From Bacteroidota bacterium (GTDB lineage Bacteria > Bacteroidota > Bacteroidia > Chitinophagales > Saprospiraceae), in assembly GCA_020160935.1 (NCBI GenBank), contig JAIUPL010000042.1:1-32895 (forward strand): 32,895 bases of DNA. The letters are read 5' to 3'. The notes below the pieces were generated by a model, which saw nothing but the letters and a program-made list of their open reading frames with translations, was not told where the DNA came from and ran no database searches. The first letter of the stretch is position 1. Each line of letters opens with the position of its first letter. This document shows positions 5,171 through 32,769 of the stretch, piece after piece. The position numbers were made by a program, and so were the translations under genes.

Positions 5171-5370
5171 TTTCTAGAAGGTGAGAGGGTGAGAGAGTGA
5201 GAGAGTGAGAGGGTGAGAGAGTGAGAAGGTGAGAGATGTGAGAGGGTGAGAGATGTGAGAGTGGTGAGAGATGTGAGAAAAGGCATGAGAAAGGCCAAGC
5301 GAGCAGAGTTGTACACTCTACGCACTCTCACTTCTCTCACTCTCTCACTTCTCTCTTCTCTCTTCTCTAG
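5171..5370. repeat. GA-rich tandem/inverted repeat (element A)
   Basis: The left two thirds (5171-5280) are tandem variants of GTGAGAGA/GTGAGAGG on the plus strand; the right end (about 5315-5370) is the complementary CTCTCAC/TTCTCTC sequence. The outer ends match as TTCTAGAAGG and the reverse complement of TTCTCTAGAA. It fills the gap between the TonB-receptor stop (which lies inside it) and the TPR start. It can form a long imperfect hairpin. Confidence 0.85.
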
Positions 5371-7637
5371 AACTTGAACATAATGCCCCCTTTCAAAAAG
5401 AAAGGAGTGCCGGGTGTGTAATGGATTTCAGTGACAGATTCTGGTTCGTTGCGCAGGCGGGATTCGGTTTCAAATTGTGCTTCTTTCCATGCTTCATTGA
5501 GCAGGTTTTGAGCGCTCAGGGTGAATTCAACTTTTTTTCCTTTCCAGCCGGCCACCGCGTCGAGCAGGAAATACCCGTCGGCAGTGAGGCTGTTGTCTTC
5601 ATTGGCAGATCGGTCGCCCAGGTGGCGGAAACGCAGGCTGCCGTAAAAACCGGCGCCTTTGTCCCAGGTGATGCCGCCAGTACCGGTAAACACAGGCGCC
5701 AGCGGGATGTAACTTTCCGAAGCAGGCACCTCGGGTTCGTTGCCGCGGGCATAGGTGTATGTGGCATCCAGGTCGGCATACAAATACTTAAACATCTGAA
5801 GGCGCGCAGAAAGGTCGAGGCCCATGCGGCGGGTTTTGCCACCGGCTTCCACTACGGCTGCGTCGCCGACGTATACAAACTCCTGTTCCAGATCGAGCCA
5901 CCAGGCGGCGGCGTTGACCAGCAGGGCAGGAGAGGGTTTGAAAATAGCGCCCAAATCGGCGCCGAGGGCTTTGGGAAGGATGTCCAGCCCGTTTTGTGGC
6001 ACTACCACGCGGGCGTCGTTGGAGTGAAACCCGTAACCCGTATTCAGGTAAAATCGTACACGCGGGTTGGCATCGAAGTAAAAATTGAGTTTGGGGCTGA
6101 GCAGCGAAGCCGTTACCTGTTTCGGGTTGTACAGGGTGTCGAGTTTGTTTTCATAGCCGAACTGAAATACATCGGCGCGCAGGGCCGCATTCACGTTCAG
6201 TCGGGGCGCTACCTGCCAGGTGGCAGAGGCATATGCGCCGGTGTTGGTTTCGCTGATGTCGCCCAGTGCAAGCGGTCGGATCACCCGGGTGCGGTTGGCG
6301 GTACCGGAAAGTTCGCTGTTGTCGGTGGCGTCGTTTCGGAAAAACAGGCCGATTTCGGAATTCAGTTTTTTGCCGCCCAGTACGCCCTGCGCCTGATACG
6401 AACCATTGTAGCCAAACATGCGCCGGTGCTCTTTTTGCCGGATCTGGTCGCCATTTACAGGGTCTTCGAGGAAAAAGGTAAAATTGGAGTAGAGTTCGAA
6501 GTTGTAATCCGAGTAGTACAGGTTATTTTTGAATAAACTGTTGTTATTCAGGTTTTTAACGTGTTCAAATATGAAATTGTACCGACTGGTGATGCCGCCT
6601 TCGGTGTCGTCGATGGAGCCGAAACGATCGATTTGACCGCTGCGCACCGCCCGTTCTGGTATCTGACCCGAAGCATTCCAGGAACTTTGAAACGCCGATG
6701 CTGAAAAACTGATGCGCTGGTCGTCGTCCATGAGTGCGTTGAATTTTCCAAACACATTGAGCCGGCGAAATGCCTGCGGACTCTCGAAATAACCATCCGA
6801 GTACATGGTTTCGGAGGCGAGGTAGGCGTGGCGGTTGCGGCGGGCTGCATTTTGCCCCAGCAGGTTGAACGCGCCTACCGCCCGGGCTGTGTTGAACTGG
6901 CCGCCTTCCACTTTTACAAAACTGTTGTCGAGGGCGTCGGTGGTTTTAAAACGCACCAGACCGGCCGTGGTAAAATCGCCGGCATCGGCGTAGTAAGGCC
7001 CTTTTTTGAACTCCACATTTCCCAGCAATTCCGGGATGACGAAGTGCAGATCGGCGTACCCTTGTCCGTGTGCGTGGCTCACCATATTGACCGGCATGCC
7101 ATCTACGCTCAGGTTGATGTCGGTACCGTGGTCGATGTCGAAGCCGCGCAGGAAAATCTGTTCGGCCTTGCCGCCGCCGGCGTGTTGGGCAATAAACAAA
7201 CCAGGTACCACGCGCAACACATCCTGCGTCGTACTGATGGGCCGTGTTTCGATGTCGAGCACGCTGATGCTCTGAAATGGCTGGGAAGTAGCCGATTTGA
7301 TCTCTACATCCTGCAGGTTGATCGGGGCGGGATTCAGGTCGATGCGCAGGGTAGTAGTTTCGGAGTCGCGCACATTCACCTCTTTGATCGTTTTGGTTTC
7401 ATAACCAATGTAACTGACGGTGAGGGTGTACGTTCCGGCCTGAAGGTTGTTGTAGGTAAAAAATCCGAGGGGGTTGGCAGTGGTGTAAATGCCTCCTGGG
7501 TCCAGTCGAACCGTAGCGCCGGCAAGTTCAAGTCCTGTCCCGTTTTCGGTGAGTTGGCCATTGATAGAACCGTTGTGTGCGGCGAGTTGGGCCACGGCAA
7601 GCATCGGAAGGCAGGAAAAAAGTAGACGTTTGAACAT
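5367..7637 (-). CDS. TonB-dependent outer-membrane receptor with carboxypeptidase-regulatory-like N-domain
   Basis: This 756-residue protein has a signal peptide (residues 1-20), a carboxypeptidase-D regulatory-like domain (about 25-105, with YTLTVSYIGYETKTIKEVNV), a plug domain (about 115-230, with DVLRVVPGLFI and FLRGFDIDHGTDINLSVDGMP) and a 22-strand-type barrel ending in MFKF, the usual aromatic C-terminus of outer-membrane barrels. It should import a TonB-energised ligand across the outer membrane. The plug carries a His-rich stretch (HAHGQGYADLHF, 188-199) conserved in style with metal or metallophore receptors, though the ligand cannot be read from sequence. It is the first gene of the minus-strand locus TonB receptor > TPR > HupE-like > DUF4331 x2. 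The stop codon is embedded in repeat element A. Confidence 0.92.
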   Translation of the reverse strand: MFKRLLFSCLPMLAVAQLAAHNGSINGQLTENGTGLELAGATVRLDPGGIYTTANPLGFFTYNNLQAGTYTLTVSYIGYETKTIKEVNVRDSETTTLRIDLNPAPINLQDVEIKSATSQPFQSISVLDIETRPISTTQDVLRVVPGLFIAQHAGGGKAEQIFLRGFDIDHGTDINLSVDGMPVNMVSHAHGQGYADLHFVIPELLGNVEFKKGPYYADAGDFTTAGLVRFKTTDALDNSFVKVEGGQFNTARAVGAFNLLGQNAARRNRHAYLASETMYSDGYFESPQAFRRLNVFGKFNALMDDDQRISFSASAFQSSWNASGQIPERAVRSGQIDRFGSIDDTEGGITSRYNFIFEHVKNLNNNSLFKNNLYYSDYNFELYSNFTFFLEDPVNGDQIRQKEHRRMFGYNGSYQAQGVLGGKKLNSEIGLFFRNDATDNSELSGTANRTRVIRPLALGDISETNTGAYASATWQVAPRLNVNAALRADVFQFGYENKLDTLYNPKQVTASLLSPKLNFYFDANPRVRFYLNTGYGFHSNDARVVVPQNGLDILPKALGADLGAIFKPSPALLVNAAAWWLDLEQEFVYVGDAAVVEAGGKTRRMGLDLSARLQMFKYLYADLDATYTYARGNEPEVPASESYIPLAPVFTGTGGITWDKGAGFYGSLRFRHLGDRSANEDNSLTADGYFLLDAVAGWKGKKVEFTLSAQNLLNEAWKEAQFETESRLRNEPESVTEIHYTPGTPFFLKGGIMFKF

Positions 7638-7775
7638 GATTACAAGGCAGTGATGATCGTTCGTTTGGTGGTGTATTCTGTGTTTGCTGTCAGCGCTTCT
7701 CTATGTACGAGGTGAAGCGTTTTTTGGTTTTCGGGAATTATAAAAGTTGGCAGTTTGAGGTGTTTAGTTTAAAAA

Positions 7776-7820
7776 TGAAAAAAAAATGAGTCATCCCTAA
7801 AACCAGGAATGACTCATTTT
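7776..7820 (-). terminator. Intrinsic terminator of the CotH-family gene
   Basis: AAAATGAGTCAT (ending at 7794) pairs with ATGACTCATTTT (7809-7820). Read on the minus strand the hairpin is followed by a run of T (7776-7784), and it starts 23 bp after the stop of the gene at 7843. It also insulates the downstream TonB-receptor gene from read-through. Confidence 0.8.
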
Positions 7821-7842
7821 GGGCCTTTATTCTAAATTCCGC

Positions 7843-10194: not shown

Positions 10195-10275
10195 GGTATT
10201 GGAAAATGAACAATTAAGAGGGCGAACTCGCTTTAAAGCGGATTAGACGCATGCCAGGGTAAATGGTTTAGGCAG

Positions 10276-10283
10276 CAAAGTTA
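10276..10283 (-). promoter_or_regulatory. Candidate -7 promoter element of the CotH-family gene
   Basis: The minus strand reads TAACTTTG, a match to the Bacteroidota -7 consensus TAnnTTTG, 82 bp upstream of the ATG. No convincing -33 TTTG was found at the usual spacing. Confidence 0.3.
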
Positions 10284-10341
10284 ATGGCAGCGGGTACAAC
10301 TTGATGGTCAGGAAATGACACTTCCGGCTGTTTCGGTCCAC

Positions 10342-10387: not shown

Positions 10388-10417
10388 AAGTGTTTGGGTT
10401 TTCACACCCCGTTGTAA

Positions 10418-10895: not shown

Positions 10896-11040
10896 GTTAT
10901 TAAGTTATTGGTTAATAAGTTATTTGGGTTGGTTAGGGGCCATCTGCACATATGTTTGGCGTCCATTTTTGTATGGCCAAACATATGTGCAGATGGCCCC
11001 TAACCACCCCAAATAACTTAATAACCAATAACTTAATAAC
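10896..11040. repeat. Large inverted repeat (element B), 65-bp arms
   Basis: Arms 10896-10960 and 10976-11040 are reverse complements over 65 bp with two mismatches (A/T at arm position 20, T/G at 34), separated by a 15-bp loop. The outer part contains repeated TTATTAAG/GGTTA words. It begins 4 bp after the stop codon of the anti-sigma-like gene. Flanks lack a T-tract. Confidence 0.95.
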
Positions 11041-11044
11041 CCAA

Positions 11045-12583
11045 TCAGAGGATTTTGTACTGCAATCCCGCCTGCACCATCACCGAGTTAAACATCGCAT
11101 CTGAAGAAGCAAAATCGCGCATATAATCGGCGCCGATCCCAAAAATCCAGCGGTGGGTATCATACTGTAACCCAATGCCGGCCCGCCAGACTTTGTTCAA
11201 ATCCTGCGCCAAGGCCTTTTCAGCCTGATAACGTATTTCCGGATCATGCATGGGGCCTCCATGCGGCTGTTCTTCATAGGTGTAGGTGATCAACTGTGGG
11301 TCGATATGCACCCAGGTATGGGCTATGTGAACGCTGGGGCGCACAGGGAAGTGCAGAGGCACTGAATATTGAAGGCCAAAAGACAACAGTCGCTGGCGTT
11401 GTGTGCTTTCCACCTTTACCAGTTGATCGTCCTGTCCGGGGCCGCCATGTGGACCAGGGCCAGGGTGGTGGGGGTGAAAACGCGGTACAAATTTCGTGGT
11501 ATTGATATCGAAACGGAGCCAATTGGCATCTGTGGTGAGCGAAAATTGATTCCAGAACCGCCAGGCAGCAGAAATGCCCTGCCCCTGGAGTACCGAAACG
11601 CCATCCTCTCCGGGCATCGCAAAACCGCGAAAAATTTGAGCGCCAGCCCGCAGGCGGGAGTAGGTTTTAGGCGCTTTGGGCGGTTCGAGGGCCAATGTTT
11701 TTGATGCCTGTAGGGTGTCCGTGTGCGCAGCCACAGGCGGGAGAAGCGCTTCTTTGTGGAGGGCAACCGTGTCTTTTATGGTTGTTTGCGCAGTGTCGAC
11801 GACCGTGGATTTAAGTGGCGCCTGGGCGGTTGCCGTGCTGTCTATGGCAGTCGGAAGGCCTGGAACAGCCGGCTCAGTATCGGATGTGATTGCCGAACCG
11901 CTATTTTCCGGGGCCGTGGTGCGATTTTCAGTATTTTGCTGCTCTGTTTTTTCCTGAACAGGAGTGCTGTCTTGCCCCTTGGCGGGTATAGCAATGTTTT
12001 GTTGTGCAATTTCAGAAGACTTGTTCTGCGCTCGGGCTTCCGGGGCGGCAGGAGCGCCAGTGCGTCGTTGGGACTGTTTTTGCGCTACACGGTTCTCATT
12101 TCTGTGTTGTCCTGGGGCCGTTTTTTTCGTTCCGGGCGTTGCGCTGATCTGCTCGTTTGTGATCTTGCGTGTGCGGGTATTGGGAGATAAGTCCTCTTGT
12201 TGGGGTTCTTTTTTAGCGTTTACTGTATTTTTAGCGGATGGCGTGCTTTCAGATGGAAGTGAGAGGGCGGTAGATTCGGTATGGGAGGCTTCCGTTTTTA
12301 AGGGCAGGTGTTCAGGTGCGGCGGGCAGGCTGCTCGTTTGCACAATTTCTTCGAGCCGCCGGTTTTCCTGTTTCAGTTTGAGCACTTTCCAGGCCAGCAC
12401 ACCGGCTGTGACGGCAGCGGCCAGCGCGGCGATTTTCCAGTATTTCAGGTAGGAATGATGGGTGATTCCGCCGTCATCGAACGCATCGAGCCGTTTGGAA
12501 ACCATTTTCCAGTTCTTGTTACGTCGGGGGAAAGGTTGCTCTTCATCGAGTTTTTCCCTGAATAAATTGTCAAAATCACTCAT
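11045..12583 (-). CDS. Anti-sigma-like transmembrane protein with outer-membrane beta-barrel-like C-terminus
   Basis: This 512-residue protein overlaps the preceding sigma-factor gene by 4 bp (ATGA), so the two are translationally coupled. Residues 1-48 are a charged, probably cytoplasmic segment; 49-66 are a transmembrane helix (KIAALAAAVTAGVLAW); 67-85 look like a short coiled coil. Residues about 86-305 are a Thr/Ser/Pro/Glu/Gln-rich linker, and about 308-512 have alternating beta-strand patterns like a small porin-type domain (ending VMVQAGLQYKIL). Position and N-terminus indicate an anti-sigma factor; fusion to a barrel-like C-terminus is a Bacteroidota arrangement. Two predicted loops are His/Pro/Gly-rich (HPHHPGPGPHGGPG near 370-384, EQPHGGPMHDPE near 438-449) and resemble the tail of the downstream His-rich lipoprotein. 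This suggests one envelope-sensing unit, possibly metal-responsive (inference). Confidence 0.75.
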   Translation of the reverse strand: MSDFDNLFREKLDEEQPFPRRNKNWKMVSKRLDAFDDGGITHHSYLKYWKIAALAAAVTAGVLAWKVLKLKQENRRLEEIVQTSSLPAAPEHLPLKTEASHTESTALSLPSESTPSAKNTVNAKKEPQQEDLSPNTRTRKITNEQISATPGTKKTAPGQHRNENRVAQKQSQRRTGAPAAPEARAQNKSSEIAQQNIAIPAKGQDSTPVQEKTEQQNTENRTTAPENSGSAITSDTEPAVPGLPTAIDSTATAQAPLKSTVVDTAQTTIKDTVALHKEALLPPVAAHTDTLQASKTLALEPPKAPKTYSRLRAGAQIFRGFAMPGEDGVSVLQGQGISAAWRFWNQFSLTTDANWLRFDINTTKFVPRFHPHHPGPGPHGGPGQDDQLVKVESTQRQRLLSFGLQYSVPLHFPVRPSVHIAHTWVHIDPQLITYTYEEQPHGGPMHDPEIRYQAEKALAQDLNKVWRAGIGLQYDTHRWIFGIGADYMRDFASSDAMFNSVMVQAGLQYKIL

Positions 12584-13340: not shown

Positions 13341-14774
13341 TCAGGTGTTGAGGCTCATTTTGAGTTTTTTCTCCACTTCCTCCACCGTGTCCTTGAAAAT
13401 CATGTCGGTATCCATCATGTCCTGCACGGCCTTGCAGGAGTAAATCACTGTGCTGTGGTCGCGGCCGCCAAATTGTTCGCCGATGGATTTCAGCGATTTA
13501 TTGGTGAGTTTTTTGGCCAGGTACATGGAGAGTTGGCGGGCAATCACAATGTTGCGTTTGCGCGTTTCGTGGTGCAGTTTGTCCACCGGCACCTTGAAAT
13601 GTTCGGCAACCAGTTGCTGGATAAATTCGACGGTGATTTCCTTGTTGATCGTTGTCACGAAGTTGCGAATCACCTCTTTAGCCAATTCCATGTCCACATC
13701 GCGGCGGATCAGGGTGCTTTGGGCGAGCAGGGACACCATCACGCCTTCCAGTTCGCGAATGTTGTTTTTGATATTGTAGCAAATGAACTCCAGTACGTCG
13801 CTTGGAATATCAACGCCTTCGCCTTCCATTTTGGCTTCCAGAATAGCCATGCGCGTTTCGAGGTCGGGCGCTTGCAGGTCGGCGCTCAAGCCCCATTTGA
13901 AACGGGAAATGAGGCGATCTTCCATGCCTTCGAGGTCTTTCGGCGCACGGTCGGACGTCAGGATGATCTGCTTGCCGTTCTGGTGTAACTGATTGAAAAT
14001 GTGGAAGAAAATTTCCTGGGTTTTTTGTTTTCCGGAAATAAACTGGATATCGTCGATGATCAGCACATCCACCATCTGGTAGAAATTCACAAAATCATTG
14101 ACCGAGTTGTTTTTGATTGCCTGAATGATCTGGTTGGTAAATTTTTCGGCCGACACGTACAGTACGGCTTTCGAATCCATCTTGCTGATGATGTCGTTGC
14201 CGATGGCTTGAGCCAGGTGGGTTTTGCCCAGACCTACATCGCCGAAGATAAACAGCGGGTTGAAAGCCGTACCGCCCGGTTTTTTGGCAATGGCCAGGCC
14301 TGCATTGCGTGCCAGGCGGTTGCAATCTCCTTCGATAAAATTGTCGAACACATAATTCGGGTTGAGTTGCGGATCAACCTTGATGCGTTTGATACCCGGA
14401 ATGATGAACGGGTTTTTGATCATCTCCGCGTCGAATACGCCCGGCACCGGCGCATTGTCTTTGTCGGATGAAGGTTTGGTGTCCATTTTGGCTGCCCCGC
14501 TTTTTACAGGCTCCTGAACGCCCTGTTCGGGAATATGGTATAGCAAGCGGCCGCGCTCGCCCAGTTCCTGGCGAATGCTTTTTTTGAGCAGTTGTACATA
14601 ATGCTCTTCAAGCCATTCGAAAAAGAACTTGTTGGGCACCTGTATCGTAAGTACATCATTGTCTAAATGAACCGGTTTGATCGGTTCAAACCAGGTCTTG
14701 AAACTCTGCGGGCTTACATTTTTTTTGATAGTATGGAGACAATCGTCCCATACCATCCGGCTGTCTCTTGTCAT
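13341..14774 (-). CDS. dnaA: Chromosomal replication initiator protein DnaA
   Basis: This 477-residue DnaA starts at the ATG 14774; Met7 is an alternative. Domain I (about 1-85) contains VSPQSFKTWFEPIKPVHLD. A short linker is followed by the AAA+ domain with Walker A GDVGLGKT (178-185) and Walker B VLIIDDIQF, and domain IV contains the DnaA-box-reading signature GGRDHSTVIYSC. It binds DnaA boxes with ATP and melts the origin. Length is normal for Bacteroidota. No dnaN or gyrase gene lies beside it in the window; that separation is common in this phylum. The upstream region is an unusual AT-rich non-coding stretch described separately. Confidence 0.97.
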   Translation of the reverse strand: MTRDSRMVWDDCLHTIKKNVSPQSFKTWFEPIKPVHLDNDVLTIQVPNKFFFEWLEEHYVQLLKKSIRQELGERGRLLYHIPEQGVQEPVKSGAAKMDTKPSSDKDNAPVPGVFDAEMIKNPFIIPGIKRIKVDPQLNPNYVFDNFIEGDCNRLARNAGLAIAKKPGGTAFNPLFIFGDVGLGKTHLAQAIGNDIISKMDSKAVLYVSAEKFTNQIIQAIKNNSVNDFVNFYQMVDVLIIDDIQFISGKQKTQEIFFHIFNQLHQNGKQIILTSDRAPKDLEGMEDRLISRFKWGLSADLQAPDLETRMAILEAKMEGEGVDIPSDVLEFICYNIKNNIRELEGVMVSLLAQSTLIRRDVDMELAKEVIRNFVTTINKEITVEFIQQLVAEHFKVPVDKLHHETRKRNIVIARQLSMYLAKKLTNKSLKSIGEQFGGRDHSTVIYSCKAVQDMMDTDMIFKDTVEEVEKKLKMSLNT

Positions 14775-15360
14775 ACCTGATGGGACATTTGGAAATGGGC
14801 TAACCCAGACTTACATTTTGAATTTTTGTGCCTGCTTGGTCGAAACAGGGTGACAAAGATTGCTAAACTATTTGGAAGGCAGCAGGATTTTTCGACTTTT
14901 TCGACAAAAAAAATTTGAAAGTTATTTTAAAATTTTTTGTGTTTTAAACAAGTCGAAAAATGCAGTTAAGTCGAAAAAAGATTCGTTTTGGTTTTTTTGG
15001 TCATTTGGCAATAAATTAAAAAAATGGTACATTGTTTTTAATCCAAATCAGTTTTTAGGGTTTTATTTTTGGTTATTCCAAAATTTTCAAATTTTATTTA
15101 TTTGCTTGCAGGCGATCAATTAATGCCCGTATTGACTTCCTGATTTGCGTATGTCATTGTGGTTCAGGCAAAAAGGAGGTCGAAAATTTGTTTTAAAATT
15201 GGACATGGCAGGTTGTCGTGCCGGCAAAACTGCTTTGCACAGAAGCCTCCAAGAGCACATGATTTTTTCGCCGATTTGCTGAAATTATATTGTTATAAAA
15301 GGGCAGAAAATCCCAATCGCAACGTAATCAACACGTTATCTATAGCGCAATTTGCAGGAT
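14775..15360. other. AT-rich non-coding region upstream of dnaA (possible origin or dnaA control region)
   Basis: This 586-bp stretch holds no convincing gene; the frames present encode low-complexity Phe/Lys/Asn sequence. It is far more AT-rich than the flanking genes. An 11-bp word AAGTCGAAAAA occurs four times within 91 bp (see repeats at 14888-14978). No perfect TTATCCACA DnaA box was seen; TTATCTATA near 15335 is a two-mismatch relative. It may carry the dnaA promoter and possibly oriC, but position alone is weak evidence in this phylum. Confidence 0.35.
14888..14978. repeat. Four copies of AAGTCGAAAAA upstream of dnaA
   Basis: Copies lie at 14888-14898 (reverse), 14897-14907 (reverse, one mismatch, overlapping the first), 14950-14960 and 14968-14978 (forward). 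Two overlapping reverse copies face two forward copies spaced 18 bp apart. This arrangement looks like protein-binding sites near the dnaA start. Confidence 0.5.
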
Positions 15361-15993: not shown

Positions 15994-16187
15994 GTGTTTT
16001 GGTGTTTTGGTGGGCTTCGCGCTTGGGGTTGAGTTAGAGGTTGAGAAGTTGAGGGTTGAGCACCTTCAGCATTTAACTTCGAAAATGCCTTTGGGATTCA
16101 AGACAGGAATTGCTCAACCCTCAACCACTCAACTTCTCAACCTCTAACTCAACCCCAAGCGCGAAGCCCACCAAAACACCAAAACAC
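15994..16187. repeat. Large inverted repeat (element C) between divergent genes
   Basis: Left arm 15994-16062 and right arm 16111-16187 are reverse complements over about 68 bp, with one 8-bp insertion (a TGGTTGAG duplication in the right arm). The inner part of the arms is built from GTTGAG words and the outer from GTTTTGGT words. The 48-bp centre is unique sequence. It ends 27 bp before the start of the Fe-S carrier gene. Confidence 0.93.
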
Positions 16188-16214: not shown

Positions 16215-16574
16215 ATGGATATGGTGCTCGATCAACCTGTAGTTACTACACCTGTTACCCTCACGGATGGTGCTGTCGAACAACTCAATCAAATTCGTTC
16301 CAGTGAAAATATTCCGGCTGATTATGGTCTTCGCGTAGGCGTGAAAGGCGGCGGTTGCTCCGGATTTTCCTATGTACTCGGTTTCGACCAGCCGGAAGAG
16401 CAGGATGAAATTTTTGATGTAAAAGGTATCCGCGTCATCATGAATAAGGCGCATGCCATTTACCTGCTCGGAATGCAGATCGATTTTGTAAGCGGCCTCG
16501 ACAACCGGGGTTTTACGTTCGACAATCCGAACGCCAGTAGCACCTGCGGTTGCGGCACGTCTTTTTCGGCGTGA
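16215..16574 (+). CDS. A-type iron-sulfur cluster carrier (HesB/IscA/SufA family)
   Basis: This 119-residue protein has the family fold and the three invariant cysteines: Cys48 in GGGCSGFSY and Cys111/Cys113 in TCGCGTSF. These ligate the Fe-S cluster delivered to apo-proteins. Start is the ATG at 16215; no Shine-Dalgarno sequence is visible, as usual in Bacteroidota. It stands apart from other suf/isc genes in this window. A large inverted repeat ends 27 bp upstream, and a candidate promoter lies before that repeat, so the mRNA leader may be strongly structured. Confidence 0.93.
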   Translation: MDMVLDQPVVTTPVTLTDGAVEQLNQIRSSENIPADYGLRVGVKGGGCSGFSYVLGFDQPEEQDEIFDVKGIRVIMNKAHAIYLLGMQIDFVSGLDNRGFTFDNPNASSTCGCGTSFSA

Positions 16575-16646: not shown

Positions 16647-17969
16647 ATGAAACCCGCCCTTTTCGCGCGAGCCGCGTTTGTTGCTTCGATGCCAGTCCTT
16701 GGTATCGCCTTTTTTCTACTGTTTTTGGGTTCCGAGTGTTCCGGACAGGTGATGTACGGAAGTACCCTCAGTCAGATCAAAAAAATCGGGCTGGGCGCCT
16801 GCCAGGATACCTTTATCGTTGCCTGTCCGCCGCTGAACGATATGGCAATTGGCCCAAGCGGCCTGTTTTATGGCATCAACAGCAATAGAATTGTTTCCAT
16901 AGACCCCGGCACGGGAACGGTTACGGTGATCGCCACCGTGAACGGGATGATTGCTACCAGCCTCGAATATGGCGAGGACGGATTTTTGTATGCCCTCGGG
17001 CAAACCTTGTGGAAAATCGACCCTGTGAGTGGTGCTGTTCAGGTGAACGGCATGTTGCCCACAGGCTGGGTGCCAATGGGCGATCTGGTATATCTTGATG
17101 GCATTTATTATGCAAGCTCCACCACGCCCCAGGGCAACAAACTGATCAATGTAAACCTGAACAATCCTGCTGCGTCCACGATAATCACCAGTTTGCCGGC
17201 GGGCGGACTGGTCGCAGGCGCTTCGGTGTATGACCCCGTTTGCCCCAAACTGTACTGGAGTCAGATCAGTACCCCGAATATTCATGCGTACGACGTCAAT
17301 TCCCAAACCTGGAGCATTGCCTGTTCCAGCGTGAACTGGGGCCTGGGCGGCGGCGACACGCCCAACGACTATTCCTTTCCATATGTATGCGGTTGTACCA
17401 TCAATGCAGGAAATGTAAATCCGCTACAGTTCAACCTCTGCGGGGAGGGCGCTACGGCCAATACGCCGTATACAGGCGGTGCTGTGCTGGGCAGCACAGG
17501 CATCCTCCGATATGTACTGGTGACGGATCAGAACAATCCTGCCGGAAGCATGCTGTTTCAAAATATCAGCCCGGTTTTCGGATTTGTGATGGGCCAAATG
17601 AATTATGGACAAACCTATTATATAGGTACAGTCGCCGGGCAGCCGCAGGGTGGAAATGTCGACCTTTCTGACCCGTGTATAGATTTTTCCAACCAATTTG
17701 CCCGGGTCGTCTGGCAACCCCAGCCATCGCTGGTTTTTACTGCTTCCAATCCGAATATCTGTGCAGGAGCGTGCAAGGATGTGCAGGTGGCTCTGACGGG
17801 CACACCGCCGTTCACCCTTAGTTATCAAGTCAATGGAGGAACCACGCAAACGCAAACTTTTACGAGCACAAACGGTTTGCTTCAGGTTTGTGTGCCATCA
17901 GGCAGTAGTGCGCAAACCCTGGTTTTAAATGCGCTGGGGCTCAGCGACGCGTATTGTAGTTGTCAGTGA
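16647..17969 (+). CDS. Secreted beta-propeller-like protein, probably C-terminally shortened
   Basis: This 440-residue protein has an N-terminal signal sequence (hydrophobic core VLGIAFFLLFLGSECSGQ). Residues about 45-240 show propeller-like repeats (MAIGPSGLFYGINSNRIVSIDP, LEYGEDGFLYALGQTLWKID, GDLVYLDGIYYAS). Residues about 365-440 look like the first Ig-like module of longer Saprospiraceae surface proteins (ICAGACKDVQVALTGTPPFTLSY ... SDAYCSC in short form). Such proteins normally continue through more modules to a T9SS sorting domain; here translation stops at SCQ, 15 bp before a perfect 53-bp inverted repeat. It may be a truncated relic or a complete short form. Function unknown. Confidence 0.7.
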   Translation: MKPALFARAAFVASMPVLGIAFFLLFLGSECSGQVMYGSTLSQIKKIGLGACQDTFIVACPPLNDMAIGPSGLFYGINSNRIVSIDPGTGTVTVIATVNGMIATSLEYGEDGFLYALGQTLWKIDPVSGAVQVNGMLPTGWVPMGDLVYLDGIYYASSTTPQGNKLINVNLNNPAASTIITSLPAGGLVAGASVYDPVCPKLYWSQISTPNIHAYDVNSQTWSIACSSVNWGLGGGDTPNDYSFPYVCGCTINAGNVNPLQFNLCGEGATANTPYTGGAVLGSTGILRYVLVTDQNNPAGSMLFQNISPVFGFVMGQMNYGQTYYIGTVAGQPQGGNVDLSDPCIDFSNQFARVVWQPQPSLVFTASNPNICAGACKDVQVALTGTPPFTLSYQVNGGTTQTQTFTSTNGLLQVCVPSGSSAQTLVLNALGLSDAYCSCQ

Positions 17970-17976: not shown

Positions 17977-18100
17977 AAAAAAAATAGGTGAACGCTACGC
18001 TTTGTGTCCTTCGTGAAACCTTCGTGTCCGTTGTGGTAAAAAAACTAACCACAACGGACACGAAGGTTTCACGAAGGACACAAAGCGTAGCGTTCACCTA
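17977..18100. repeat. Perfect 53-bp inverted repeat (element D), probable terminator of rlpA
   Basis: Arms 17985-18037 and 18048-18100 are perfect reverse complements over 53 bp with a 10-bp A-rich loop. The arms contain the direct words CTTCGTG and TTGTGT/TCGTGTCC. Eight A at 17977-17984 give, on the minus strand, a T8 tract right after the hairpin, so it can act as an intrinsic terminator for the rlpA-like gene. It lies between convergent genes. Confidence 0.95.
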
Positions 18101-23900: not shown

Positions 23901-24512
23901 ATGGAATCAAGCAAAGCGCCGCAACAGGATGAATTCCTGTTTCACCCCAAAAATGTACAGTTGTTCGTGTTGCTGGCCGGACTCACCTTTTTGTTTCTGG
24001 CCCTCACAGTTTCCTATGTGTACATTCGGGTCACCAATGGCATCCCGCCTGTTCGCTTGCCGGCGCTTTTTCTGCTGAATACGGTCATTCTGCTGGGCAG
24101 CAGTTATACGTTGATTCGGGCCAAACGGGCTTACCTGCACGATGATACGCAAGGGTACCAGAATTTCCTGAAATGGACAATCTGGCTGTCTATTCTTTTT
24201 ATGGTGATGCAGGGTGTTGCCTGGACCTGGCTGTTCACACAAGGCATTTACATGCACTCCACCACGACCACCGGGTTTCTATACGTTATTTCCATTGTGC
24301 ATTTTGCGCATGTCGTCGGCGGGCTTCCTTTTCTGTACAATTTTTACCGCACGGCCCAAAAAAGGATGGTCGACCCCGTCACCGTGCTGGTGTATTTTTC
24401 CGATCCGGAAAAACGCCTCAAACTGCGCCTTCTGACGATTTACTGGCACTTTCTGGATATTTTATGGATATATCTGGTGGTGTTTTTTGGGGTAAATCAG
24501 TGGGTGAGTTGA
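23901..24512 (+). CDS. Heme-copper (cytochrome c) oxidase subunit III
   Basis: Starting at ATG 23901 (203 residues; the frame is open 57 bp further up without support), the protein has about five transmembrane helices. Subunit III motifs include FLFLALTVSYVYIR, the central FLKWTIWLSILFMVMQGVAW and the C-terminal LLTIYWHFLDILWIYLVVFF. It belongs to the respiratory terminal oxidase complex in the inner membrane. It stands alone here; the other oxidase subunits (I, II) are not in the window, so it is an orphan copy or an extra subunit III, as often seen in Bacteroidota. Its stop codon is inside inverted repeat E. Confidence 0.85.
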   Translation: MESSKAPQQDEFLFHPKNVQLFVLLAGLTFLFLALTVSYVYIRVTNGIPPVRLPALFLLNTVILLGSSYTLIRAKRAYLHDDTQGYQNFLKWTIWLSILFMVMQGVAWTWLFTQGIYMHSTTTTGFLYVISIVHFAHVVGGLPFLYNFYRTAQKRMVDPVTVLVYFSDPEKRLKLRLLTIYWHFLDILWIYLVVFFGVNQWVS

Positions 24513-24633
24513 TGAGGTTGATAAATGTTGATGAGGGTTGATAGTTGAGGGGTTGAGGTTCATGTACCCAAAACTAAATGGTATGGGATGCCTCTCAACC
24601 TCTCAACCCCTCAACCCCTCATCAACCCTCACC
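24503..24633. repeat. Large inverted repeat (element E) between convergent genes
   Basis: Left part 24503-24558 is built from GTTGATGAGG and GTTGAGGG words; right part 24591-24633 is the complementary CTCAACCCCTC and ATCAACCCTC. Pairing is imperfect because copy numbers differ. Both convergent stop codons (24510-24512 and 24629-24631) lie inside the outer ends. Words are shared with elements C and G. Confidence 0.85.
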
Positions 24634-27184: not shown

Positions 27185-27248
27185 ACCTTTTTTTATATAT
27201 TCGAAACCCTGCGCCGGAAAAAGATCGGCCCTGCATACATTTGTGATT

Positions 27249-28703
27249 ATGGCAACGAAAAATAAATCGGCTGCAACAGAGCAACACCGGAATAAAGTAT
27301 ATCAGGTGCTGGAGTGCCTGGATGAATCGGAACACAAGAGACTTTCCAGGTTTCTGCACTCGCCTTATTTTATCAAAACGAAAACCCTGGTCAATCTTTA
27401 TGAAGTATTAGTAGCGAAAATCCGGAAAGGGGAGCCCGGATTCGATCGGCTGGATGTGTGGGGGGAAATACAACCAAATGTGCCGTTCGACCCAATCGTA
27501 TTCCGCAAAAACTGTTCCGATCTGCTCAAATGGACGGAAATATTCATGGCGCAGGAATTTCAATTGCAAAATGACAATTACCGGACACTCGGGCTGCTCG
27601 ATTTCCTGGTTCAACGTAAAATAAAACCCCTCTACGATCGAAGTATCCGCGAAGCACGCGAACGCATGGCGCAAAAATCCTTCAAAGCGCTCGATGACTT
27701 TTATACTGCTTATTCCATTGAACGGCATTATTACACCATGATGGACTTTGATATGTCGGTTGATAAACGCGCCAATATTGAGGCCATTTCCGAAAACCTG
27801 GATGTTTTTTACTGGATTGAAAAACTGCGCCTGTTTAGCGCCAGCCTGAGCCAGCAACGCACCAGCCTTCACCGATACGATTTGAATGGATTGCCTCAAA
27901 TGCTGGACATTTTGTCGACTTATCCACTCGATAAGTGTCCGGAACTGGCCATTTATTACTACTCCTTCCTGACGCTCTACGAGGAAGAAAATGTGGATCA
28001 CTACAATCGGCTGCTACAATTGCTGGATCAATATTTGCCCCAAATGCCCCGGCAGGAGGCAATGGAAATTATTGATTCCGCGCTGCATTATTGCACTGGC
28101 AAAATCAACCGGGGGCAAAGCGAATTCTACCAGAAATACTTTGATTTATTCGTTTTTTCGCTTGAGAATGGCATCTTTTCTCATGAAGCCGAGTTCCCCG
28201 TATGGCGTTATAGCAACATTGTTGCGGCAGCCCTGCGCCTCGACAAACTGGACTGGGCCGAGCAATTTGTAAAAGACCACAAGCACCTGTTGCCTGAAAT
28301 CAGCCGAGAAAACACCTATTCCTTTAATCTGGCACGGGTGTATCGTTTCCAAAAAAAATATTCTAACGTCATCAACCTGTTGAAAAATGTGGAGTACGAG
28401 GACATGGGTTACAACCTCATCAGTAAAATGATGCTCCTGATCACGTACTATGAACTGGATGAATACGATGCGCTCAATAATTTTCTGGATACATTCAAGA
28501 TATTCCTCAAACGCAAGGAAAAACATATTCCCGGCCCGCGTCGAACTTCATACCTCAACCTGATCAAATATACTCGTCAACTGATTCGACTGATCCCTGG
28601 CGACAAACAGGCCGTGGGAAAACTGAAAAACGCCATAGAGCAGGAGAAATCCATGATCGTGAACCATGAATGGCTGCTGGAAAAATTGCAGCAACTTGGC
28701 TGA
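27249..28703 (+). CDS. Conserved helical protein of unknown function
   Basis: I take the ATG at 27249 (484 residues); an upstream GTG at 27243 is also possible. No signal peptide or membrane helix, so cytoplasmic. The protein is mostly alpha-helical with many Tyr, Leu and acidic residues. An N-terminal module (about 15-110, including LDESEHKRLSRFLHSPYF and FRKNCSDLLKWTEIFMAQEF) is followed by helical pairs resembling a degenerate TPR array (ELAIYYYSFLTLYEEEN, NLARVYRFQKKYSNVINLL, MMLLITYYELDEYDALNNFL). It resembles hypothetical proteins frequent in Saprospiraceae; no function is known to me. It is 81 bp upstream of a co-directional secreted protein and may share its transcript. Confidence 0.8.
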   Translation: MATKNKSAATEQHRNKVYQVLECLDESEHKRLSRFLHSPYFIKTKTLVNLYEVLVAKIRKGEPGFDRLDVWGEIQPNVPFDPIVFRKNCSDLLKWTEIFMAQEFQLQNDNYRTLGLLDFLVQRKIKPLYDRSIREARERMAQKSFKALDDFYTAYSIERHYYTMMDFDMSVDKRANIEAISENLDVFYWIEKLRLFSASLSQQRTSLHRYDLNGLPQMLDILSTYPLDKCPELAIYYYSFLTLYEEENVDHYNRLLQLLDQYLPQMPRQEAMEIIDSALHYCTGKINRGQSEFYQKYFDLFVFSLENGIFSHEAEFPVWRYSNIVAAALRLDKLDWAEQFVKDHKHLLPEISRENTYSFNLARVYRFQKKYSNVINLLKNVEYEDMGYNLISKMMLLITYYELDEYDALNNFLDTFKIFLKRKEKHIPGPRRTSYLNLIKYTRQLIRLIPGDKQAVGKLKNAIEQEKSMIVNHEWLLEKLQQLG

Positions 28704-28784
28704 TTCGCTTCCAACCTGGTTACAATTTTCAGTTCGCGCGTGCGTTCTTTTCAACGCTGCTCCACTTTTCAAACTAAACGCGGA

Positions 28785-29726
28785 ATGTCATTTCAAAAAA
28801 CGGGATTGTTTCTTGTACTCTTTTTTGCTGCCTCCTGGTACGCCGACGCACAAACCGGCGGAAAACCCGCAGGCAAACTCTCGGCACAGAACAGCGAATT
28901 GATCCGGCTCGGTGAAGACACCCTCGCCATCCTCGCCTATGCCGTGGTAAACGACTCGATCGAACAGGAGCGGTTTGCGGCCTGTCGTGCGCTTATTACC
29001 TGCCTGGTTCGTACCCTTAAAGTGGAAAATTCTTTCAAATACCGCTTCGAACGCCTGCGTAGCATTTCCATTATTGCGCCCCCCGACAGCAGTTTCCGCA
29101 TGTTTACCTGGCAATTGTTTGTCAATGATTCCACCTACCGCTATTACGGCGCTATTCAGACGAATCGAAAGGAATTGCAACTGTTTCCGCTGATCGACCG
29201 AAGTGCGGAAATGGACATTTTTCCAGCCCTCGAACAACTCACGCCCGAACGCTGGTACGGCGTACTCTACTACAACCTGCGGCAATTCGATACCAAAGAA
29301 GGGCGCAAATACCTGCTCCTGGGCTATGATGCCTATGATTTTTATACCCGCAGAAAAGTGGTCGACGTATTAAGTTTCGATGCAAACGGCAAACCCGTTT
29401 TTGGCGCGCCCGTTTTCGACCGCGAAGACCGAAAAGGCCCACCGGAGAAACGCATTTTTTCCGAATATGCCGCTGAAGCCTCCTTCCGCATGAACTGGGA
29501 CGAACAATATCAGATGATCCTGATCGATCATGCTGTTCCCATGCCCAGTCCCTATGGCAGTGGCGTCGTTATGGTACCGGATGGCAGTTACGACGGCTTA
29601 AAACTGGACAAGGGCCGCTGGAAATACATCAGCAAGGTTTTCAACGATGTAATGGAAGAAACACCTCGCCCCGAACCTGTGCTGGATGATCGGAAGAAGA
29701 AGGATATTATGGGGAAAAAACAATAA
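28785..29726 (+). CDS. Secreted hypothetical protein
   Basis: I use the ATG at 28785 (313 residues) because it gives a clean signal peptide (MSFQKTGLFLVLFFAASWYA, then DAQ). The mature protein has no sorting domain or membrane helix, so a periplasmic location is likely. Features are LGEDTLAILAYAVVNDSIEQ, a beta-rich middle (ERWYGVLYYNLRQF, YLLLGYDAYDFYTRRKVVDV, FRMNWDEQYQMILIDHAVPM) and a basic Pro-rich end (PRPEPVLDDRKKKD). I do not recognise a characterised family. It follows the helical protein gene by 81 bp and ends exactly where inverted repeat F begins. Confidence 0.75.
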   Translation: MSFQKTGLFLVLFFAASWYADAQTGGKPAGKLSAQNSELIRLGEDTLAILAYAVVNDSIEQERFAACRALITCLVRTLKVENSFKYRFERLRSISIIAPPDSSFRMFTWQLFVNDSTYRYYGAIQTNRKELQLFPLIDRSAEMDIFPALEQLTPERWYGVLYYNLRQFDTKEGRKYLLLGYDAYDFYTRRKVVDVLSFDANGKPVFGAPVFDREDRKGPPEKRIFSEYAAEASFRMNWDEQYQMILIDHAVPMPSPYGSGVVMVPDGSYDGLKLDKGRWKYISKVFNDVMEETPRPEPVLDDRKKKDIMGKKQ

Positions 29727-29891
29727 AGTCCTGAGTCCTGAGTCCTGAGTCATAAGTCCTGAGTCCTAAGTCCTGAGTCCTAAGTCCGTAGAGTACACCT
29801 TGATACCCTCGGTATTTCTGACCAGATATCCCATGAGTATCAAGGTGTACTCTACGGACTTAGGACTCAGGACTCAGGACTCAGGACTTTA
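29725..29891. repeat. Large inverted repeat (element F) spanning two convergent stop codons
   Basis: The right arm (29837-29890) pairs with the inner 54 bp of the left side (to 29806), with a few mismatches. The left side carries extra copies of the 7-bp word AGTCCTG/AGTCCTA. The inner part includes AGTCCGTAGAGTACACC, shared with element H. The outer ends coincide with the TAA stops of both flanking genes, which both read TAAAGTCCTGAG. Confidence 0.93.
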
Positions 29892-30689
29892 CTGTCCCAA
29901 CTCCCGCGCCCTTCCCAGCGCCGCATTCGCTCCGGCCACAATGTCTTCATGCAGGGCGGTTTGGCGGAAAACACGCAGGGCGGCCTCGGTGGTGCCGCCT
30001 TTAGAGGCCACTTTTCCAATCCAGTTTTCGCAACTCAGGCCCGCCTGGTTATACAGGTCGAGCGCGCCGGTAAAGGTTTGACTGACAAGCAGTTCTGACT
30101 CCGATTCGGAAAACCCCATTTGCTGCGCGGCCTCCATCATGGCGTTCATAAAAAAATAAACGTAAGCGGGCCCGGAGCCGGAAATGGCCGTCGATGCATC
30201 GATCATTTTTTCCTGCTCTACATACAGCGTTTTACCAGTGGTATTGAGCAGATTCTGTACCATCACAAGTTCTATGCGCGTCACCTGATCGGTGGAAGTA
30301 AAAGCCGTGACGCCTGCGCCGATTTGTGCCGGCAGGTTGGGCATGGCCCGAATCACCTTATCGACGCCCAGGGCCTGGGAAATCGTATCCATACGTACAC
30401 CGGCCATGATGCTGATAAATACCTGGCCAGGTTGTACTAAAGTGCGTATTTGCTCGAACAGCGATGCAGAATCCTGGGGTTTTACCGATAGGATCAACAG
30501 GTCGGCTTGTGGCACACAATCCTGCGGGTTGCTAAAAAAACGCCCATCATGCGACTGGCTGAGTTGTTGCGCTTTTTCTTCCGTGCGGCACAAAACACTC
30601 AGATTTCCGGAAGTAACAATACGGCTGCGCAAAAAACTTTGTGCATAGGTGAGGCCCATGTTGCCTCCCCCCAGGATGAGGATATTCAT
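29889..30689 (-). CDS. proC: Pyrroline-5-carboxylate reductase
   Basis: This 266-residue enzyme (ATG at 30689) catalyses the last step of proline synthesis, reducing pyrroline-5-carboxylate with NAD(P)H. The Rossmann fold starts at residue 1 (ILILGGGNMG, 4-12), followed by LILSVKPQD, SIMAGVRMDTI and VIRAMPNLPAQIGAG. The C-terminal domain has the family signature ISGSGPAYVYFF (169-180) and VASKGGTTEAAL (228-238). Length and motifs are complete. It is divergent from the asparaginase-like gene (136-bp shared upstream region, no clear promoter word) and its stop codon is the end of inverted repeat F. Confidence 0.95.
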   Translation of the reverse strand: MNILILGGGNMGLTYAQSFLRSRIVTSGNLSVLCRTEEKAQQLSQSHDGRFFSNPQDCVPQADLLILSVKPQDSASLFEQIRTLVQPGQVFISIMAGVRMDTISQALGVDKVIRAMPNLPAQIGAGVTAFTSTDQVTRIELVMVQNLLNTTGKTLYVEQEKMIDASTAISGSGPAYVYFFMNAMMEAAQQMGFSESESELLVSQTFTGALDLYNQAGLSCENWIGKVASKGGTTEAALRVFRQTALHEDIVAGANAALGRARELGQ

Positions 30690-30825
30690 ATAAAATGGTG
30701 TTTGAGTGATTTTTTGAACAGGTAGCAAGTACAAAATGCAGGAACTACCAGACAAGTTCCCATTACCTCACCCCCTTCTATTACCTTTCCGCAAAATTTC
30801 CATTTTTCCCGATCAAATGCTAAAG

Positions 30826-31869
30826 ATGAAAGAAATAAACTTTTTCCATGGCCTTGGACTTTGTTGGGTGTTGTGCCTGACAGCCTGTCAAAAAAATGCA
30901 TCCTCATCAGAAAATAAACCTGCCATGCAGCAACGCCCGGCTTATGCCATTGCCATCCACGGCGGCGCCGGCACCCTCAGCCGTGCCAATATGACGCCTG
31001 AAAAAGAGGCGGCTTATCGCAGCGCCCTCGATTCGGCCTTGATCATCGGCGAGACCGTGCTGAAAAACGGCGGCACCTCCCTCGATGCGGTTGAAAAAAC
31101 CATTACTTACCTGGAAGACTGCCCTTTGTTCAATGCAGGCCGCGGAGCGGTTTTTACCCATGACGGTCGCAACGAACTGGATGCCAGTATTATGGACGGC
31201 ACTACGCAGAAAGCAGGTGCTGTGGGGGGCGTGAGTATCGTGAAAAACCCGATTCAACTGGCCCGCGCTGTCATGGACAAATCGCCGCATGTATTCCTGA
31301 CCGGGCGCGGCGCCGAGCAATTTGCCATCGAACACCAGATCGATACCATCGACCCCAAGTGGTTTTTTACCCCCGAGCGCTGGCAAACCCTGCAAGAAAT
31401 GCTTGCTGAAGAAAAAAAGGCAGGCCCGACCGGAGAACTCGACCCTGCACTGCGCGACTATAAATTCGGCACCGTGGGTTGTGTCGCACTCGATGCGCAG
31501 GGACACCTGGCAGCAGGTACCAGTACCGGCGGCATGACCAACAAACGCTGGAACCGCCTAGGCGATTCGCCAGTGATCGGAGCAGGCACCTACGCCTCCG
31601 ACGACGCCTGCGCCGTATCGTGCACCGGCCACGGCGAGTTTTTTATCCGCTATGCAGTAGCGCATGATGTTTGGGCATTGATGTCGTACAAAAACCTGTC
31701 ACTGGAAGAAGCCGCCAATTTTGTCGTGCGCAAAAAACTCGTGGAAAAAGGCGGCGAAGGCGGACTGATCGCCGTCGATAAAGCCGGAAACATCGCCCTG
31801 CCATTTAATTCGGAAGGTATGTATCGAGGATATGCGAAACCCGGGGAACGAAAAGTGATGATTTATTAG
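30826..31869 (+). CDS. Isoaspartyl peptidase/L-asparaginase, Ntn-hydrolase, predicted lipoprotein
   Basis: With the ATG at 30826 the protein has 347 residues and begins with a lipoprotein signal (MKEINFFHGLGLCWVLCLTAC, Cys21). The Ntn-hydrolase domain shows IAIHGGAGTLS (N-terminal pocket), LFNAGRGAVF, ELDASIMDG and the autocleavage site KFGTVGCVALD with nucleophile Thr216. The following AGTSTGGMTNK and GDSPVIGAGTYAS complete the plant-type asparaginase signature. The enzyme self-cleaves before Thr216 and hydrolyses isoaspartyl dipeptides or asparagine. A membrane-lipoprotein location suggests it works on peptides in the periplasm. The stop codon overlaps the first base of repeat G. Confidence 0.92.
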   Translation: MKEINFFHGLGLCWVLCLTACQKNASSSENKPAMQQRPAYAIAIHGGAGTLSRANMTPEKEAAYRSALDSALIIGETVLKNGGTSLDAVEKTITYLEDCPLFNAGRGAVFTHDGRNELDASIMDGTTQKAGAVGGVSIVKNPIQLARAVMDKSPHVFLTGRGAEQFAIEHQIDTIDPKWFFTPERWQTLQEMLAEEKKAGPTGELDPALRDYKFGTVGCVALDAQGHLAAGTSTGGMTNKRWNRLGDSPVIGAGTYASDDACAVSCTGHGEFFIRYAVAHDVWALMSYKNLSLEEAANFVVRKKLVEKGGEGGLIAVDKAGNIALPFNSEGMYRGYAKPGERKVMIY

Positions 31870-32087
31870 TTGATGAGGGTTGATAAAGGTTGATGAGGGT
31901 TGATATTCATCAGCTCGGGTAAGGGGAAATTCCCCTTCATCAAGCTGCTGAATATCAACCCTCATCAACCTTTATCAACCCTATCAACCTCATCAACCTC
32001 ATCAACCCTCATCAACCCTCATCAACCCTCATCAACCTTTATCAACCTTTATCAACCTTTATCAACCCTCATCAACCCTATCAACCC
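31869..32087. repeat. Inverted repeat plus ATCAACC tandem array (element G)
   Basis: Left arm 31869-31915 (GTTGATGAGGG words) pairs with the right arm 31943-31988 with two differences; the centre holds a smaller palindrome, AAGGGGAAATTCCCCTT. The right side continues as an array: ATCAACC occurs 14 times between 31952 and 32085 with spacers CT, CCT or TTT (periods of 8-10 bp). It fills most of the 254 bp between the asparaginase and GNAT genes. Confidence 0.93.
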
Positions 32088-32123
32088 CATTCCATCACCC
32101 AAACACCCCAACACAAATTCCCC

Positions 32124-32657
32124 ATGCTCCCTATCAACGAACAAATTTTCCTCGCTCCCTTTCAGCCCGACGACAAGGCTGCGCTCATTCAATACCTGAA
32201 CGACCCTGTGTTATATGCCAATACCCTGAAAATTCCAAGCCCGTACACGGCGCTGCATGCGGATGAATGGCTTCAATTTGTGGCAGGAGAAAAAGATGCA
32301 CCAGGAGGTATTTGCAACTGGAGTATCCGGCACCGGGAGCACGGACTGATTGGAGGAATCGGCTGCTTTTTGAAGACAGGCCTGAATGGACATGTGGACG
32401 AAATCGGCTACTGGCTGGCACAGCCATTTCGGGGGCAAGGAATCATGACCGCTGTCGTACAGCGATTTACGCAATGGATGCTCGAACAGCGTCCCGCGCT
32501 GGTGCGTATCGAAGCAAATGTGTTTCCCACAAATCCTGCATCCATCCGCATACTGGAAAAAGCAGGGTTCCAGCAGGAAGGCTATCACCGCAAGGTGCAC
32601 CTGAAGGAGGGAAAATATCTGGATGGGGTGATGATGGCAATAAGTCGAGAGTCCTGA
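32124..32657 (+). CDS. GNAT-family N-acetyltransferase (RimJ/RimL-like)
   Basis: This 177-residue protein uses acetyl-CoA to acetylate an amine. The acetyl-CoA-binding motif A is at 93-110 (EIGYWLAQPFRGQGIMTAVV, with the RGQG pyrophosphate loop), and the later IEANVFPTNPASIRILEKAG and FQQEGYHRK match the RimJ/RimL branch (ribosomal-protein N-terminal acetyltransferases and related enzymes), although the substrate cannot be assigned. It sits 254 bp downstream of the asparaginase gene across repeat G. Its TGA stop is supplied by the first CCTGAGTCC word of repeat H. Confidence 0.88.
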   Translation: MLPINEQIFLAPFQPDDKAALIQYLNDPVLYANTLKIPSPYTALHADEWLQFVAGEKDAPGGICNWSIRHREHGLIGGIGCFLKTGLNGHVDEIGYWLAQPFRGQGIMTAVVQRFTQWMLEQRPALVRIEANVFPTNPASIRILEKAGFQQEGYHRKVHLKEGKYLDGVMMAISRES

Positions 32658-32769
32658 GTCCTGAGTCCCGAGTCCGTAGAGTACACCGTATTACTTTTGG
32701 CAATCCAATCAATAAATGCCAAAAGTAATACGGTGTACTCTACGGACTCGGGACTCAGGACTCAGGACT
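32650..32769. repeat. Perfect 53-bp inverted repeat (element H)
   Basis: Arms 32650-32702 and 32717-32769 are perfect reverse complements over 53 bp, with a 14-bp loop. The outer part is AGTCCTG repeats, then AGTCCGTAGAGTACACC (identical to element F), then a unique inner segment. The GNAT stop codon lies inside the left arm. No T-tract follows in the direction of the GNAT gene. Confidence 0.96.

Follow-up and report, generated by a model that had tools for sequence, protein, structure and literature searches.

The window analysed here is the whole 32,895-bp contig JAIUPL010000042.1 (contig C19), part of a 5.84-Mb draft genome of 51 contigs from a Saprospiraceae bacterium (termed G000). Eight elements of the window, A to H, are large hairpins. 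Each consists of two arms made of short-word arrays, in many cases joined by a shared linker to an apex that varies. Their locations are shown in Table 1. Genes were predicted with our own codon-score script.

Table 1. Hairpin elements A to H of the window, with neighbouring genes (strand in brackets).
Element	Position	Words and build	Arms and loop	Gene context
A	5171..5370	GTGAGAGA words, imperfect hairpin	40-bp arms 5231-5270/5316-5355, 85%	Ends at the stop codon of a TonB-dependent receptor gene, 5367-7637(-)
B	10896..11040	GTTATY-family hairpin	65-bp arms, 97%; 15-nt loop	4 nt from the stop of gene 11045-12583(-)
C	15994..16187	Nested hairpin; outer GTGTTTTG words and CTTCGCGCTTGG linker, inner GTTGAG words	100% over 60 bp	Divergent gap; probable leader of gene 16215-16574(+)
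D	17985..18100	CTTTGTG/CTTCGTG words	Perfect 53-bp arms; 10-nt A-rich loop	Convergent gap
E	24503..24633	GTTGAT and GTTGAG words, imperfect hairpin		Convergent gap; overlaps both predicted stop codons
F	29720..29895	AGTCCTG words, CGTAGAGTACACC linker	98% over 53 bp (29754-29889); further word arrays outside this core	Convergent gap; overlaps both predicted stop codons
G	31869..32087	GTTGATGAGG words; hairpin 31876-31982	91% over 53 bp; second arm's array continues unpaired to ~32087	Directly 3' of the stop of the asparaginase gene 30736-31869(+)
H	32642..32777	AGTCCTG words	Perfect core 32650-32769, 53-bp arms	Overlaps the end of gene 32124-32657(+)

The elements were first described in an initial annotation made from the sequence of the window, and all eight exist. 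Seven of them are clear in an inverted-repeat search; element E scores below the ungapped cut-off of 18 and is visible in RNA folding (z = -3.1). The arm figures given earlier for D and H (perfect over 53 bp) and for B were reproduced, as was the share of about 4% of the window (the element lengths sum to 1,292 of 32,895 bases, 3.9%). An arm-to-arm identity near 100% holds for B, C, D, F and H but was overstated for A, E and G. Three order-1 Markov copies of the window gave no inverted repeat with a score of at least 16. Compared with such copies the elements have folding z values from -2.7 (A) to -15.3 (D), and the RNA folds are stable on both strands.

Most elements of the window abut or overlap a stop codon, a point absent from the initial annotation. 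By our gene calls element C is the only one in a divergent gap, and its position shows that not every hairpin serves a gene end. A TACTTTTG box lies upstream of it and is kept in several relatives; we take this box to be a promoter.

Abundance and word families

The window and 20 stretches of 20 kb from the same genome were sampled (432,895 bases, 7.4% of the genome). The stretches were hand-picked from contigs matching element A, which as a BLAST query finds 136 pieces in the genome. An ungapped scan shows 87 inverted repeats with a score of at least 18, compared with one in an order-2 Markov copy. The initial annotation had asked for a scan of this kind, with lack of enrichment over shuffled sequence as an outcome that would speak against the family; the enrichment in the sample is strong. 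With a score of at least 20 there are 86 hairpins in 433 kb, or ~1,100-1,200 per genome if the sample is fair, although the choice of stretches may bias the density upwards.

About 14 short-word families can be distinguished, and 79 of the 87 repeats are assigned to families by word. The families include GTTATY, GTGTTTTG, AGTCCTG, GTTGATGAGG, GTGAGAGA, GTTGAG, GAGTTAT, GGCAA, CTTTGTG, CGCAGA, GCGGAT and GGATTT. The median arm length is 49 bp, and linkers such as CGTAGAGTACACC recur between the word array and the apex in several families. Word arrays number 176: 146 are paired or inside an inverted repeat, 19 are solo and 11 are in predicted coding sequences (CDS). By our count 13 of the 19 solo arrays are within 30 nt of a gene 3' end; two are the arms of element E itself.

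The dnaA gene of the window (13341-14774) has its best matches in metagenome-assembled genomes (MAGs) of Saprospiraceae, the nearest being MAG-362 (JAEUUT010000083.1), which appears to be G028, as its match tables are identical. Five genomes are hairpin-rich (G000, G028, G016, G006 and G031), with 20 to 37 hairpins per 100 kb. The density is only 0 to 10 per 100 kb in another nine relatives from the same group, of which 20 to 120 kb each were sampled, and among further dnaA loci (L013-L088) 51 of 76 are without a hairpin. Word-type hairpins do occur, more rarely, in relatives assembled into few contigs, e.g. G007 with nine contigs.

Position relative to genes

None of the 86 hairpins lies wholly inside a predicted CDS, and several overlap gene ends. 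In intergenic gaps of at least 30 bp, hairpins are present in 26 of 36 convergent, 40 of 164 codirectional and 10 of 52 divergent gaps (p = 2e-7 and 8e-7). A 3' gene end is nearer than a 5' end for 65 of the 86, and 49 start within 20 nt of a 3' end.

In codirectional gaps 24 of 41 hairpins are at most 10 nt from the upstream stop, where random placement in the same gaps gives 7.9 ± 2.3 (maximum 14 in 1,000); four are at most 10 nt from the downstream start, compared with 7.7 at random. When the 80 bp before the next start are kept free, to leave room for a promoter, the number expected near the upstream stop rises to 15.9 ± 2.9 (maximum 25 in 2,000). Thus part of the stop-side pattern is promoter avoidance.

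Same sites with different words

Orthologous gaps were anchored on the flanking genes of four G000 stretches: the window, L133, L119 and L137, the last three chosen since they are hairpin-rich. G031 was compared for the window only and is left out of the site-persistence statistics. In G028 (88% anchor identity) a hairpin is found at 15 of 16 gaps that hold one in G000 and at 3 of 40 other gaps (p = 7.5e-10). In G016 (79% anchor identity) the numbers are 14 of 18 and 9 of 35 (p = 4e-4).

The words are often not the same. Word similarity was measured by shared 6-mers with a cut-off of 0.25, a value reached by 9% of pairs of different G000 sites. At kept sites it is below 0.25 in 4 of 15 cases in G028, 9 of 14 in G016 and 4 of 5 in G006. 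Word-class expressions used earlier had been tuned on G000 and labelled several of the relatives' hairpins "other", and the sequences of the window, L133 and L119 were then inspected. Judged by eye, words are swapped at 2-3 of 15 sites in G028 and 8-9 of 14 in G016. It should be noted that L133:5174 in G028 and L119:19518 in G016 score low by 6-mers yet share GTTATY words, and that L119:11773 in G016 scores high but looks different. This comparison shows hairpin sites outlasting their words between G000 and these two relatives.

Site F displays AGTCCT words in G000 and G028, GTTATT in G016, and GAGTTAT in G006 and G031. At site E, G028 has an AGTCCT hairpin. At site G, a GGATTT-type hairpin stands among remnants of GTTGAT words in G028, and G016 also has other words; no hairpin was found at this site in G006 and G031. 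Site C in G000 is a GTTGAG hairpin inside a GTGTTTT hairpin, where G028 and G006 have the outer words only; these are weakly paired in G031 and absent in G016. Sites C and G suggest that new hairpins originate within the apex of older ones. The one filled/empty pair at site C (G000 and G016), judged by eye, shows no clear target-site duplication.

At site D the word family is kept in the matching gap of G028 (L009), and seven other loci have, by eye, a short stem with a T-tract. The window gene 16647-17969 is largely missing from the corresponding place in G028; only its last bases remain before the site-D hairpin.

Changes in the two arms

The GTTATY family was aligned in 15 G000 copies, nine from the sample and six fetched after a pattern search. 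A two-sided change is seen in 24 of 43 stem pairs, although the choice of copies, as inverted repeats or for their matching words, raises the paired share. The covariation score is 0.279. Shuffles give 0.113 ± 0.012, with none of 500 as high, and slid structures give no more than 0.068. Thus in this one family two-sided stem changes go beyond both controls. The 630 cells of the alignment include 58 two-sided changes, 16 one-sided standard pairs and 64 unpaired. Arm-to-arm identity has a mean of 94%, with the same reservation about selection, and copy-to-copy identity within a family is 85%. The earlier statement that pairing is conserved or constantly regenerated is in accordance with these values.

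Mismatches on the transcribed strand of codirectional hairpins in the five rich genomes comprise 67 G-U and 60 A-C (p = 0.59). Selection on pairing at the RNA level was considered as a cause and was set aside, as there is no G-U preference. With many two-sided changes, few wobble intermediates and no G-U preference, the arms seem to be rewritten together at the DNA level, by fold-back copying or gene conversion. The examples named in the initial annotation, template switching and gene conversion, give the best fit; no copying event was caught, and loop inversion, a trace that template switching leaves, was undetected.

The arms also differ in base composition. The 5' arm has more G than C in 71 of the 86 hairpins (12 are the reverse and three are even). 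Over all samples the 5' arm is G-richer in 12 of 14 word families (p = 0.013), the exceptions being AGTCCT and CGCAGA. Small intergenic hairpins do not have a G-richer first arm (14 against 23). Since a hairpin reads alike on both strands, arm polarity belongs to the fold and does not reflect the direction of genes. One possible source of this polarity is that a G/T-rich first arm is copied by folding back.

Relation to terminators

A T-tract, defined as at least 5 T in some 7 nt within 20 nt downstream of the hairpin, is found at 12% of sense sides (n = 95) and 15% of antisense sides (n = 41). The initial annotation had stated that most elements have no T-tract and that plain intrinsic terminators do not explain all of them; both statements hold for the G000 sample.

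In convergent gaps of the hairpin-rich genomes, hairpins are present in 48 of 62 and U-tract terminators, found with our own scanner, in 17 of 62 (11 in shuffled sequence). In hairpin-poor relatives the hairpins are in 8 of 42 and terminators in 24 of 42 (shuffled 7), a terminator contrast with p = 0.004; this group pools small samples and includes five dnaA loci picked as poor. Replacement of ordinary terminators by hairpins was considered and has been downgraded, because the contrast fails without the five hand-picked loci. The evidence for such replacement is weak. In G000 alone, terminators are in 8 of 26 gaps with a hairpin and 2 of 9 without.

According to PMC13289151, REP hairpins in E. 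coli stabilise the 3' ends of RNA but do not mediate termination, and RNAs terminated by Rho are trimmed back to REP-type hairpins. We infer that this is the most likely mechanism here.

Interpretation and alternatives

The reading we favour, with a probability of about 0.4, is that the hairpins form a genome-wide class of 3'-end barriers whose letters turn over as fold and place persist, the arms being matched at the DNA level; both this matching and the barrier function are what we infer. Matching would be maintained by a polymerase that folds back, or changes template, inside the hairpin, or alternatively by gene conversion between arms or between hairpins. Copying at the DNA level would let words and apex be replaced while the fold stays. 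A transcribed hairpin right after the stop codon would be a very stable RNA barrier that halts 3'-to-5' exonucleases, and it may also aid factor-dependent termination, at convergent genes in both directions. Selection would then see structure and place, not sequence.

A bolder form of the proposal, which we consider unlikely, treats gene ends as structure-only slots. About three quarters of convergent pairs (48 of 62) would keep a hairpin for its fold, replication would rewrite the letters by fold-back copying, mostly with a G-richer first arm, replacements would be born in the apex, and the hairpins would be the main 3'-end formers of the lineage.

Several observations weigh against 3'-end barriers with persistent sites. 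Site persistence is not significant in G006 (77% anchor identity; 5 of 9 against 11 of 30, p = 0.44). Since hairpins are so frequent in convergent gaps, apparent word swapping could reflect loss and regain there. Of all 86 hairpins, 21 have a 5' end as the nearer gene end and 24 are more than 60 nt from any 3' end, and ten divergent gaps, including that of element C, hold one. The placement partly fits mere avoidance of genes and promoters. In orthologous pairs with the same words, one-sided changes (87) exceed paired two-sided changes (26), and 20 two-sided changes are unpaired; the arrays align poorly. Loop inversion was not found, the orthologous loops aligning in neither orientation beyond chance. 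T-tracts are scarce, as given above. Without the five hand-picked dnaA loci, terminators are in 12 of 29 gaps of the poor genomes against 17 of 62 (p = 0.23), and in rich genomes they occur in 13 of 48 gaps with a hairpin and 4 of 14 without, i.e. there is no mutual avoidance.

Almost as likely as 3'-end barriers is a neutral by-product: word hairpins would be created and perfected by slippage and template switching, cleared from genes and promoters by purifying selection and so left at gene ends, without any function. This agrees with arm matching that looks DNA-level, the presence of hairpins in divergent gaps and in one probable gene leader, the lack of a U-tract, the failure of orthologous loops to align, and the lack of complementarity with ordinary terminators inside rich genomes. 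It does not readily account for persistence of sites as far as G016, nor for the crowding at stop codons, which exceeds random placement even with promoters spared, though by a modest margin (24 against 15.9 ± 2.9).

An origin as REPIN- or MITE-like mobile elements, with a Y1 (IS200/RAYT-like) or other transposase moving them, is improbable. Dispersed families with shared linkers, the excess of paired over solo arrays (146 to 19) and two Y1_Tnp matches in G000 would suit them, and some linkers contain GTAG, which by eye is not a terminal tag of all families. Such elements, however, usually keep their sequence and change place, and here the reverse is often seen. Mobilisation by Y1/RAYT was rejected as Y1_Tnp is present in 27 of 36 genomes searched, hairpin-rich and hairpin-poor alike (a set that excluded G028 and G031). 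The surroundings of six of seven Y1_Tnp matches in G000, G006 and G016 contain one word-type hairpin (L205:226-332, GAGTATTT-type, ~1.4 kb off); the other repeats are of different kinds. Repeats made by a reverse transcriptase were likewise rejected: four of the five rich genomes (G028, G016, G006 and G031) have no PF00078 match.

It is less probable still that the hairpins are ordinary U-tract intrinsic terminators grown long. Their position at gene ends and in convergent gaps and their stable RNA folds on both strands would be expected of terminators, but the T-tract rates are low and several hairpins start at the stop codon or overlap it. The least credible explanation, assembly artefacts produced by fold-back reads, would draw on the draft state of G000 and on the rich relatives being MAGs. 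The placement is non-random, however, different words occur at one gap, and word-type hairpins are also found in the few-contig relatives. The initial annotation had named such artefacts as a possible refutation; MAGs published separately would not be expected to share them at identical gene ends, a judgement made from placement, with the reads not examined.

Loss of the hairpin nuclease SbcCD was considered as a permissive cause and rejected, as there is no clean correlation with hairpin richness. G000, rated 98% complete, has no match to SbcD (TIGR00619) or SbcC (PF13558) at E ≤ 1e-3. The hairpin-rich G006 has an SbcC-like frame of 1148 aa. The hairpin-poor G007, G009 and G022 show no more than weak SbcCD matches, and in the related G008 and G012 both are over the cut-off.

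Comparison with known repeats

By title and abstract, no description of such hairpins was found among the matches listed in the open-licence literature. Cyanobacterial STRR are likewise intergenic short-word repeat arrays, multi-copy and patchily distributed.

Among the closest known systems are REP/REPIN sequences with RAYT transposases, which are extragenic, palindromic, present in many copies, often downstream of genes, and able to form hairpins as inverted pairs (PMC3116915, PMC3733652, PMC12306157). The hairpins are extragenic in the sense of PMC12306157: none of 86 is wholly in a CDS, though 11 of 176 word arrays are in predicted CDS. REPs of E. coli, as given there, are 14-40 nt with a common consensus. 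Here the arms are longer and a common motif is true within word families, not across the ~14 families. REPs are also often near a RAYT gene; here no transposase could be linked and the sites outlast the sequences.

The TAACTGA heptamer repeats of Beggiatoaceae, cyanobacteria and Bacteroidetes (PMC4679880) are similar as intergenic, multi-copy, patchily distributed short-word arrays. In that source, however, they are direct repeats, mostly just before start codons in Maribeggiatoa, in contrast to the inverted pairing of 146 of 176 arrays here, mostly towards gene 3' ends. RNA hairpins made by template switching (PMC8794818) show joint two-sided changes that keep the stem perfect, with fold-back copying proposed; these are mostly short ribosomal RNA stems, unlike the long, dispersed hairpins of this genome, whose words and apex are wholly replaceable. 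Intrinsic terminators are reported to include hairpin clusters and proposed U-less forms (PMC8355165 and others). The hairpins resemble terminators in following soon after a stop codon and being shared by convergent genes, and differ in having no U-tract, in being much longer and in often touching the stop codon. A survey from 2026, covering perfect inverted repeats in 118,019 genomes, found enrichment after bacterial stop codons (PMC13155455); its main text contains neither of the words Bacteroidota and Saprospir.

Additional observations

The gap upstream of dnaA (window 14757-15360) is 604 bp by our gene calls; it is 604, 604 and 602 bp in G028, G016 and G031, and 481 bp in G006. Within it is an AT-rich inverted repeat (14887-14961), and the region is a candidate replication origin.

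G000, G006 and G016 share similar Y1 transposase genes, and just upstream of these stands a long inverted repeat (L203:2084-2178, L205:2221-2377, L206:2332-2607) with GGGCG..GCCCT segments, unlike the word hairpins. These are perhaps a separate REP-like family.

The exact GTTATTG pattern was found at 15 places in G000 and, in a set of 298 genomes of the order, once each in two others (G028, G016, G006 and G031 were not among them), and wide sharing of one hairpin was rejected on this basis. A plasmid origin was also rejected, as element B gave no match in a plasmid collection at E 1e-5 with the low-complexity filter on. Similar words turn up in sequences that look unrelated: AGTCCTGAGTCCTGAGTCC was found in nine stretches of IMG/VR viral contigs (L223-L231), in some of which a partly complementary array lies opposite. 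Long hairpins built from different words (GGAGTCATTT, GTTAGCAGTCAACA and TGAGAGAA) occur in relatives otherwise hairpin-poor or more distant, at L151:14471-14890 (G021), L155:3571-3734 (G005) and L085:8326-8496.

Significance

In the usual dispersed repeats the sequence is kept and the place changes; in many of the hairpins described here the place is kept and the sequence changes. Predictors that seek a short stem and a U-tract would overlook them. If the proposal of 3'-end barriers is confirmed, the hairpins would provide a natural system, with many sites per genome, in which the formation and maintenance of long stems by fold-back copying could be measured, and may represent a new kind of 3'-end signal.

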